64,000 nucleotides of DNA from Hyphomicrobiales bacterium. Lineage in GTDB: Bacteria > Pseudomonadota > Alphaproteobacteria > Rhizobiales > RI-29. The position numbers and the translations under genes were made by a program. This document shows positions 61,462 to 63,602 of the stretch, in pieces (position 1 is the stretch's first letter; each line of letters starts with the position of its first letter). Under the pieces are notes generated by a model. The model was not told the DNA's origin and searched no databases. It saw only the letters and a list, made by a program, of their open reading frames with translations. The DNA is taken from contig WGLQ01000006.1 of assembly GCA_016125495.1 (NCBI GenBank), positions 1-64,000 on the forward strand, read 5' to 3'.

Positions 61462-62379
61462 ATGACGATCGCCGTGAATGCCGGTGCGCCCGATGCATCC
61501 TATCGCAGGGGCGTCCTGCTCGTGCTGCTGGCCGGCACCTGCTGGTCGATCATGGGCGTCACCATCCGCTTCATGGAGGAGGCGACGGCGGCGCAGATCC
61601 TCTTCTACCGCTCCCTGGCGCTGGCGCCGGTGCTGCTGGTGATCATGGCGGTCAAGTCGGGCGGCAATCCGCTCGCGCAGGTCGCCCGTTCGAGCAGCGC
61701 CGCCGTGCTCGGCGGGCTGTCGCTGGTGGTCGCCTCGGCCGGCGGCGTTGCCGCGATCCAGCTGACAACCGTGGCCAACGCACTCTTCCTCTTCGCCTCG
61801 GCCCCGTTCTTTGCCGCCATCATCGCGCGCGTGGTGCTCGGCGAGCGCCAGCGCATGGCGACCTGGATCGCGCTCACGTTCGCCCTGTTCGGCATCACGA
61901 TGATGGTCGGCGAGGGAATTTCGATCGGCCATCTCGAGGGCAACCTCATGGCCGCCCTCTCGGCGCTCGGGTTCGCCGTGTTCACGGTGGCGTTGCGGTC
62001 GGAGCGGCATGTCGACAGCCTGGCGACGGTGTTTCTCGGCGCGATCTTTTCGCTGGTGGCGACGGGGGCGTTCTGCATGGCTTCCGGGATCGGCCTGGCG
62101 CTCTCGATGAACGACCTCCTGCTCAGCCTCGGGCTCGGCATCTTCCAGATGGGCGCAGGGCTGACGCTCTATTCGCTCGGCTCGCGCAGCGTGCCGGCCG
62201 GTGAACTGGCCCTCCTTTCGATGAGCGAGGTGGCGCTCGGCGTGCTCTGGGCCTGGCTGCTGCTCGGGGAGTCCGGCGGCTTTTTCACCATGCTGGGTGG
62301 CGGCCTGCTGATGGCGGCGATCGCCGGCAATGCGCTCTCGGGAATGCGGCGCCGGCCGGTGCCGACCGGAATCCGCTGA
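61462..62379 (+). CDS. EamA/DMT-family transporter
   Basis: A 305-residue protein with ten hydrophobic segments in two EamA halves. The first half includes GVTIRFMEEATAAQILFYRS and FFAAIIARVVLGERQRMATW; the second includes GAGLTLYSLGSRSVPAGELA and ALLSMSEVALGVLWAWLLLG. Such transporters usually export metabolites or amino acids. Substrate unknown. Divergent from the TAXI gene; the 242-nt gap should hold both promoters. Confidence 0.92.
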   Translation: MTIAVNAGAPDASYRRGVLLVLLAGTCWSIMGVTIRFMEEATAAQILFYRSLALAPVLLVIMAVKSGGNPLAQVARSSSAAVLGGLSLVVASAGGVAAIQLTTVANALFLFASAPFFAAIIARVVLGERQRMATWIALTFALFGITMMVGEGISIGHLEGNLMAALSALGFAVFTVALRSERHVDSLATVFLGAIFSLVATGAFCMASGIGLALSMNDLLLSLGLGIFQMGAGLTLYSLGSRSVPAGELALLSMSEVALGVLWAWLLLGESGGFFTMLGGGLLMAAIAGNALSGMRRRPVPTGIR

Positions 62380-62409
62380 GCGTCGGCGGAAGGCCTGTCC
62401 TCCCGGCGG

Positions 62410-62423
62410 TTGACCTGGATCAA
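62410..62423 (+). promoter_or_regulatory. FNR/FixK-type anaerobox upstream of hsp20
   Basis: TTGACCTGGATCAA is one base away from the perfect FNR/FixK palindrome TTGAT-N4-ATCAA. Its centre lies 32 nt before the centre of the -10-like GATGAT (62446-62451), exactly the class II activator spacing (-41.5). Predicted transcription start is near 62458, about 60 nt before the ATG. Confidence 0.75.
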
Positions 62424-62445
62424 TGCCCCCGCGACCCCTCCTCGC

Positions 62446-62451
62446 GATGAT
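62446..62451 (+). promoter_or_regulatory. -10 box of the hsp20 promoter
   Basis: GATGAT at the distance expected from the anaerobox of a class II FNR/FixK-activated promoter. Confidence 0.5.
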
Positions 62452-62517
62452 CATGGCAGGCCGCGCTCCCCCCGCGCGCGCCGAATTCCCAAAGCGACAA
62501 CGCAAGAGAGCAAGCAC

Positions 62518-63018
62518 ATGGCACAAGAGATCAAGAAGTCCGAGCCGGCTGCACCTGCAGCTCGCGCAACAGTCGACCCCTTCACCGCCATGCGGGCGGA
62601 AATGGACCGGGTCTTCGACAGCTTCCTCGGCCGCGGATGGGGCGCCATGCCCACCGTGTTCCAAGACTTTCCGCGCGCGAACGGCACGATGCCGAGCGTC
62701 GATATCCGTGACGACGAAAAGGAAATCGTCGTCGAAGCCGAGTTGCCGGGCATCGCCGAGAAGGATATCGACGTGACGCTGCGCGATGGCGTGCTCACGA
62801 TCCGCGGCGAGAAAAAGGGCGTACGCGAGGAAAAGAAAGACGACTACCATCTCAGCGAGCGCAGCTACGGCAGCTTCCAGCGCTCGTTCCGGCTGCCGGA
62901 CTCGATCGACGAGGAAAAGATCGCGGCAAAGCTCGAGAGCGGCGTCCTGAGAATTGCGCTCCCGAAACGTCCGGAGGCCGTCAAGGCGGAAAAGCGGATC
63001 TCGATCGCCAGCAAGTGA
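62518..63018 (+). CDS. Hsp20/alpha-crystallin small heat-shock protein
   Basis: A 166-residue chaperone. An N-terminal arm (DPFTAMRAEMDRVFDSFLGR) is followed by the alpha-crystallin domain (about 55-150: VDIRDDEKEIVVEAELPGI, then DVTLRDGVLTIRGEKK and YGSFQRSFRLPDSIDEEKI) and the assembly motif LRIALPKRPEA. It holds unfolding proteins in soluble oligomers. The promoter carries an FNR/FixK box, so expression is probably induced at low oxygen rather than only by heat. Confidence 0.95.
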   Translation: MAQEIKKSEPAAPAARATVDPFTAMRAEMDRVFDSFLGRGWGAMPTVFQDFPRANGTMPSVDIRDDEKEIVVEAELPGIAEKDIDVTLRDGVLTIRGEKKGVREEKKDDYHLSERSYGSFQRSFRLPDSIDEEKIAAKLESGVLRIALPKRPEAVKAEKRISIASK

Positions 63019-63078
63019 GAGACACTGACGGCGCATGATCCGGAGCACCAGACCGGAGATCCCGGCAGGCATCGGGGC

Positions 63079-63112
63079 GGTCGACGGACAGGCTGAAAAT
63101 CGTCTGTCGACC
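63079..63112 (+). terminator. Stem-loop after hsp20
   Basis: GGTCGACGGAC (63079-63089) pairs with GTCTGTCGACC (63102-63112), 11 bp with one G-T pair and a 12-nt loop. It is about 60 nt after the hsp20 stop and before the convergent gene. No T tract. Confidence 0.4.
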
Positions 63113-63147
63113 GTTCGTCGATCATTGCGACCGAGTTGCGCCCAAGT

Positions 63148-63213
63148 GCGCTGCTATTGCCCTTCGGCTTCGCCGAAGCGCGCTGCTATTGTCCTTCGGC
63201 TTCGCCGAAGCGC
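63148..63213. repeat. 32-bp tandem duplication at the 3' end of the small membrane protein gene
   Basis: Two direct copies with period 32 differ at one position (C at 63160, T at 63192). Each copy contains the palindrome CTTCGGC-TTC-GCCGAAG and, on the reverse strand, the codons for the last residues GEAEGQ and the stop TAG. The copy nearer the gene supplies the real stop at 63186; the other lies beyond it and makes a second hairpin, together a likely terminator. Confidence 0.85.
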
Positions 63214-63602
63214 AGGGCCCGGAATTCCTCGATGCGCGCACGGACCACGTTGCGCGACCCGTCGAAGCCGATACGCTCCATTGCGGCACTCCAATGGCCC
63301 GCCTGCACGAGCAGTTCCTCGGCCAGCGTCGAGCCACTGTAGTTTGCGATGTAGCGCTCGAGGGCGCTGGCATTGAAGAGCGCCAGCACGATCAACATGA
63401 CGAGCATGGCGGCCGCACCACGCCTCACGGTGGTGCGGGTGACGTGGGCGGTGACCTCGACGGGCAGATCGGGGTCGGAGGGCGAGCGGCGCACCGAGCG
63501 AAGGCTCGCGCTCGGCGGGACCTGGGAGCGTGGCACCTGCGAGCGAGGGACCTCGCCGCGCGGCCCGACATGGCCGGTTCTCGGTGGGTCGTTGCGGGAC
63601 AT
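63186..63602 (-). CDS. Small single-TM protein, unknown function
   Basis: A 138-residue protein. A basic, Ser/Arg/Pro-rich N-terminal part (with the repeat PRSQVPRSQVPPS) precedes one membrane segment (GAAAMLVMLIVLALFNASAL). A C-terminal helical part follows (TLAEELLVQAGHWSAAMERI, then RIEEFRALRFGEAEGQ), presumably periplasmic. No family is recognised. ATG 63602 has GAGAGGAG upstream, so I prefer it to longer frames open to 63812. The end of the gene is tandemly duplicated (see repeat). Confidence 0.7.
   Translation of the reverse strand: MSRNDPPRTGHVGPRGEVPRSQVPRSQVPPSASLRSVRRSPSDPDLPVEVTAHVTRTTVRRGAAAMLVMLIVLALFNASALERYIANYSGSTLAEELLVQAGHWSAAMERIGFDGSRNVVRARIEEFRALRFGEAEGQ

Follow-up and report, generated by a model that had tools for sequence, protein, structure and literature searches.

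Small heat-shock genes are often placed under the control of RpoH or of an RNA thermosensor, and the question raised by the hsp20 gene in the stretch of Hyphomicrobiales DNA analysed here (64 kb, hereafter the window) is whether its transcription answers to heat or to oxygen. An initial annotation had proposed that the gene lies behind a class II promoter of the FNR/FixK kind and that its product is an oxygen-limitation protein. As developed below, it is very likely that hsp20 is an oxygen-repressed small-chaperone gene, activated by a predicted FnrL through a box centred at -41.5, and the gene is probably switched on as oxygen runs out; the proposed low-oxygen role of the Hsp20 protein is thus supported as likely.

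The product belongs to the Hsp20/alpha-crystallin family of small heat-shock proteins, with a PF00011 score of 95.2 bits against a cut-off of 20.8, and is not a class A (IbpA/IbpB) member, scoring 29.2 bits with the IbpA model (cut-off 212) and 25 bits with the IbpB equivalog (cut-off 207). The listed reading frame begins at 62410, a position that had to be given up as the gene start: the TTG found there opens a merely mechanical frame that crosses the operator, while the ATG at 62518 is backed by the codon score and by a relative with 61% identity that aligns from residue 1. Upstream and on the same strand lies a gene for an EamA transporter (61462-62379); downstream, the ORF predicted next is encoded by the opposite strand. 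A terminator scan found none 3' of hsp20. The interval between hsp20 and the opposite-strand ORF also holds two tandem 32-nt copies containing CTTCGGCTTCGCCGAAG-like sequence (63139-63202), which are 91% alike and were not called as a terminator.

The box itself, TTGAC-CTGG-ATCAA or TTGACCTGGATCAA, conforms to the FNR class II operator pattern TTGAY-N4-RTCAA. It is the sole match to TTGAYNNNNRTCAA in the window; dinucleotide shuffles yield a mean of 0.06 matches, with at least one match in 6 of 100. In class II FNR promoters the operator is centred at about -41.5, that is, with 22 nt between the box and the -10 element. Both the box and the 32-nt distance described in the initial annotation proved correct, the box ending 22 nt before a -10-like GATGAT whose centre lies at 62448.5. 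Because 32 nt separate the two centres, setting the hexamer at -12 to -7 would place the centre of the box at -41.5 and the transcription start at A62458. This -10 is weak, agreeing with TATAAT at 4/6 positions and carrying a G at -12; a match of at least 4/6 at one fixed position has a chance of about 0.8% at the composition of the window, and 0.5% of the window positions reach it. The exact -10 is uncertain because a second 4/6 hexamer, GATCAT, follows 3 nt downstream.

Table 1. Features of the hsp20 promoter and gene, in window coordinates.
Feature	Position	Strand	Remarks
FNR/FnrL operator TTGACCTGGATCAA (predicted)	62410..62423	+	centre 62416.5, putatively at -41.5; similar box before relatives' genes
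-10-like hexamer GATGAT	62446..62451	+	same offset as the -10 peak of 44 boxed relatives
Transcription start A (putative)	62458..62458	+	class II geometry
5' leader (putative), 60 nt	62458..62517	+	no thermosensor seen (Rfam, fold z-score)
hsp20, encoding a 166-aa small heat-shock protein that does not score as IbpA-like	62518..63018	+	PF00011 E 2.9e-27

The scan for further boxes that the initial annotation had called for revealed a genome-wide enrichment, with 26 FNR-type boxes in the 4.05-Mb genome versus 4 matches to the reversed pattern and 1 to the pattern with an N5 spacer, one base longer. The identical 14-mer occurs at one other place (C25:54954). As judged with a simple codon-score gene caller, the midpoints of 18 of the 26 boxes fall outside predicted ORFs and those of 8 inside. 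Among the adjoining genes are ccoN, for a subunit of the cbb3 oxidase, and bchE, each scoring above the cut-off of its model (TIGR00780 and TIGR02026, respectively); bchE is next to pufM, and its box suggests FnrL control of anaerobic bacteriochlorophyll synthesis. The remaining neighbours include two Usp and two DUF2189 genes and those for a cytochrome c, a bacterial globin, a hemerythrin, a pyridine-nucleotide reductase, an acetyl-CoA synthetase-like protein, an amino-acid permease and a sulphur transporter. The cbb3 oxidase and UspA form part of the published FNR regulon in the available text of a comparative study of the FNR, FixK and DNR regulons (PMC2908626). The box between pufM and bchE has the sequence TTGATCTGGATCAA (positions 1503-1516 of locus L064, contig C28) and stands 52 nt before the bchE start. 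When 19 box-gene arrangements of this genome were examined for a -10 element, hsp20 alone had a 4/6 match at offset 22, the offset being counted from the end of the box; none of the other 18 reached 4/6 there, six had 3/6, and bchE had a 4/6 match at offset 21. Class II geometry is therefore no clear rule in this genome.

The box is conserved well beyond it. Among the best 80 Hsp20 loci of a scan, in which the box was sought in the 250 nt that precede the start chosen for each gene, TTGA-N6-TCAA precedes 40, and each of eight control patterns, including those with N4, N5, N7 and N8 spacers, precedes 0 or 1 of the same 80. By record titles, the boxed loci comprise 40 of the 67 proteobacterial loci and 0 of the 13 others among these best 80, so that a perfect box is absent within 250 nt in 27 of the 67. 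The distance from box start to start codon is 66-120 nt in 31 of the 40 boxed loci and 108 nt in the window; in some (L086, L088, L114, L122) the sole box lies nearly 200 nt or more upstream. Additionally, 57 order-level relatives have an Hsp20 match; loci were taken from 29 of them, and the box was sought up to 320 nt upstream of the match. It precedes 13 of the 25 genes of the higher-scoring Hsp20 kind (L026-L050), two of which (L042, L046) come without upstream sequence, and none of the four lower-scoring ones (L051-L054). It was likewise found before 0 of 20 chosen lower-scoring Hsp20 paralogues, one of them from this genome. The spacing is conserved as well: in 44 non-redundant boxed promoters, the window excluded, the match to TATAAT was followed offset by offset and peaks at offset 22 (mean 2.50/6), where 10 of the 44 reach at least 4/6, as compared with 0-2 of 44 at each of the offsets 0-18. 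The GATGAT of the window occupies exactly this offset.

These data bear on two readings in which the box would play little or no part. The TTGAC half-site could be the mere -35 of an ordinary sigma-70 promoter, and TTGACC does look like a -35 hexamer; however, at spacers of 15-19 nt from it the downstream hexamers share just 0-1 of their 6 positions with TATAAT, a promoter scan of 62340-63300 found none, and the relatives repeat the whole palindrome TTGA-N6-TCAA with its exact gap. We regard this reading as extremely improbable. Alternatively, hsp20 could be controlled chiefly by heat, through an RpoH promoter or an RNA thermosensor, with the box in a secondary role, as heat control is common for genes of this family. 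Against this, Rfam returned for 62300-62700 one chance-level match and none over the gathering score, the predicted fold of the leader (z-score 0.27) is no better than that of shuffles, and an RpoH pattern has no match in 62380-62517. Each of these scans is weak evidence of absence, and chief control by heat is judged very unlikely.

A third reading accepts the box and assigns it to a different CRP/FNR protein, of the FixK type, and it turns on the regulators that the genome encodes. FNR-type recognition helices carry the motif E-x-x-S-R. The HTH_Crp_2 profile gave ten matches in the genome, six of them over cut-off, and all six were inspected. One, a 250-aa protein encoded on contig C4, scores 323.6 bits with the NCBIfam FnrL model and 122.5 with the FixK model (cut-off 300 for each); it has cysteines at residues 25, 28, 36, 39 and 124, supplying the four ligands for a predicted cluster, and the helix TIETVSRQ. 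Of the other five, two CRP/FNR-like proteins, those of C35 and C2, have no ETVSR helix and stay below every FNR/FixK cut-off, two matches (L005, L006) are GntR-family regulators, and the last (L007) is a 181-aa frame in which no cNMP-binding domain was found. Two of the four sub-cut-off stretches were read (L008, L009), both without the helix motif. The Crp model PF00325 matched the C4 place only, and the FnrL model matched C4 and, at 20.9 bits, C35, and nothing else in the genome.

By its sequence, then, the one FNR-type regulator of this genome is FnrL, and the regulator foreseen in the initial annotation as FixK or FNR was found in its FNR form, and none of the six HTH_Crp_2 matches that exceed the cut-off looks like a FixK-type protein. 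Among solved structures the C4 protein comes closest to FixK2 (100.9 bits) and next to FNR (67.8 bits), which alone would suggest a FixK; but the protein keeps cysteine ligands, one or more of the four being absent from the otherwise FNR-like FixK proteins as defined in the available text of PMC2908626. The same source favours a FixK reader in that the Bradyrhizobium homologue of hsp20 is under FixK2 and the FNR and FixK sites are very similar. Against it stands the finding that the C4 protein alone, among the six matches, combines the ETVSR helix with an FNR-group score. Because the assembly is 99.35% complete, an overlooked FixK is possible but unlikely, and we consider a FixK-type reader here highly improbable.

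Across the relatives, a strong FnrL match and the box do not track one another. Of 25 relatives, the box is present in 7 of 14 with a strong FnrL match (at least 195 bits) and in 6 of 11 without, and an association between the two was accordingly rejected; such independence would be expected if FixK-type proteins also read the box. One boxed relative (G024) has no regulator match above 35 bits. Four of the 25 have hsp20 and a match to the CRP/FNR family no more than about 4 kb apart (L030 in G002 C337, L035 in G049 C1, L036 in G057 C1 and L042 in G056 C421), that of G056 being weak at 38.6 bits.

The lifestyle that the initial annotation had drawn from the box, microaerobic or denitrifying, stood in its first part: microaerobic life is supported because ccoN adjoins a box. 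Denitrification found no support in a search for NirK, NarG, NapA, NirS and one NosZ model, in which nothing came over cut-off. The genome has no match to the NirS domain (Cytochrom_D1), and its NirK, NarG and NapA matches, all below the curated cut-offs, are probably other multicopper and molybdopterin enzymes. The NosZ model had no match either, and it came over cut-off in 0 of 14 control genomes, so this result has no positive control. The genome also holds two photosynthetic reaction-centre genes, one of which scores as pufM, and from these the organism would be an anoxygenic phototroph.

We propose the following course of events. As oxygen falls, FnrL would assemble a [4Fe-4S] cluster and dimerise; the dimer would bind TTGACCTGGATCAA at -41.5 and recruit sigma-70 RNA polymerase to the weak GATGAT, turning hsp20 on. 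The 166-aa chaperone may then hold proteins that are unfolding while the cell lives microaerobically or by anaerobic phototrophy, or upon the return of oxygen.

Such an arrangement of a small heat-shock gene is already known, since the rlv_1399/FnrN and blr4637/FixK2 cases have been published (PMC11784457, PMC2908626). As given in the available text of PMC11784457, a reporter of the Rhizobium leguminosarum UPM791 gene rlv_1399 rises about 50-fold at 1% oxygen and is merely basal in an fnrN double mutant, and its box, TTGA-N6-TCAA, is centred at -87.5 from the start codon. Both loci thus place a small heat-shock gene behind this palindrome in a genome with an FNR-family regulator. They differ in that RLV_1399 has two boxes, one of them imperfect, and the window has one, centred 101.5 nt from the ATG; furthermore, its host is a root-nodule symbiont, whereas the present genome bears reaction-centre genes. 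Paired boxes resembling the two of R. leguminosarum, 33-54 nt apart, were observed upstream of four gammaproteobacterial hsp20 genes (L083, L108, L126, L131). In Bradyrhizobium japonicum, blr4637 is FixK2-dependent, and Hsp20 ortholog set 1551 belongs to the predicted alphaproteobacterial FixK regulon in the available text of PMC2908626. There too, an Hsp20 is assigned to a CRP/FNR regulon that serves at low oxygen, and the site is very similar; the regulator in that case is of the FixK group, which lacks one or more cysteine ligands, and here it is FnrL. The same text describes a Rhodobacter sphaeroides regulon in which, as here, FnrL is joined to cbb3 oxidase and UspA gene targets; the Hsp20 set is placed there under FixK, without an R. 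sphaeroides locus.

Published relatives thus respond as predicted. The present analysis adds a genome that combines FnrL with reaction-centre genes and in which no FixK was seen, together with a wide footprint of the box and its -10 spacing, for which we make no claim that it is unpublished. A broader reading, towards which we lean slightly, is that the non-IbpA small heat-shock protein is an old and widely shared proteobacterial chaperone for oxygen limitation, whose box and -10 spacing were retained through changes of regulator (FnrL, FnrN, FixK2 and, presumably, a pseudomonad FNR homologue), and which here may serve an anoxygenic phototroph with bchE and a cbb3 oxidase. Genes for small heat-shock proteins can answer to oxygen and not to heat; a similar box precedes the genes of many proteobacterial relatives beyond the root nodule, and hsp20 is a clear candidate for studying the action of a chaperone in shifts to or from low oxygen.
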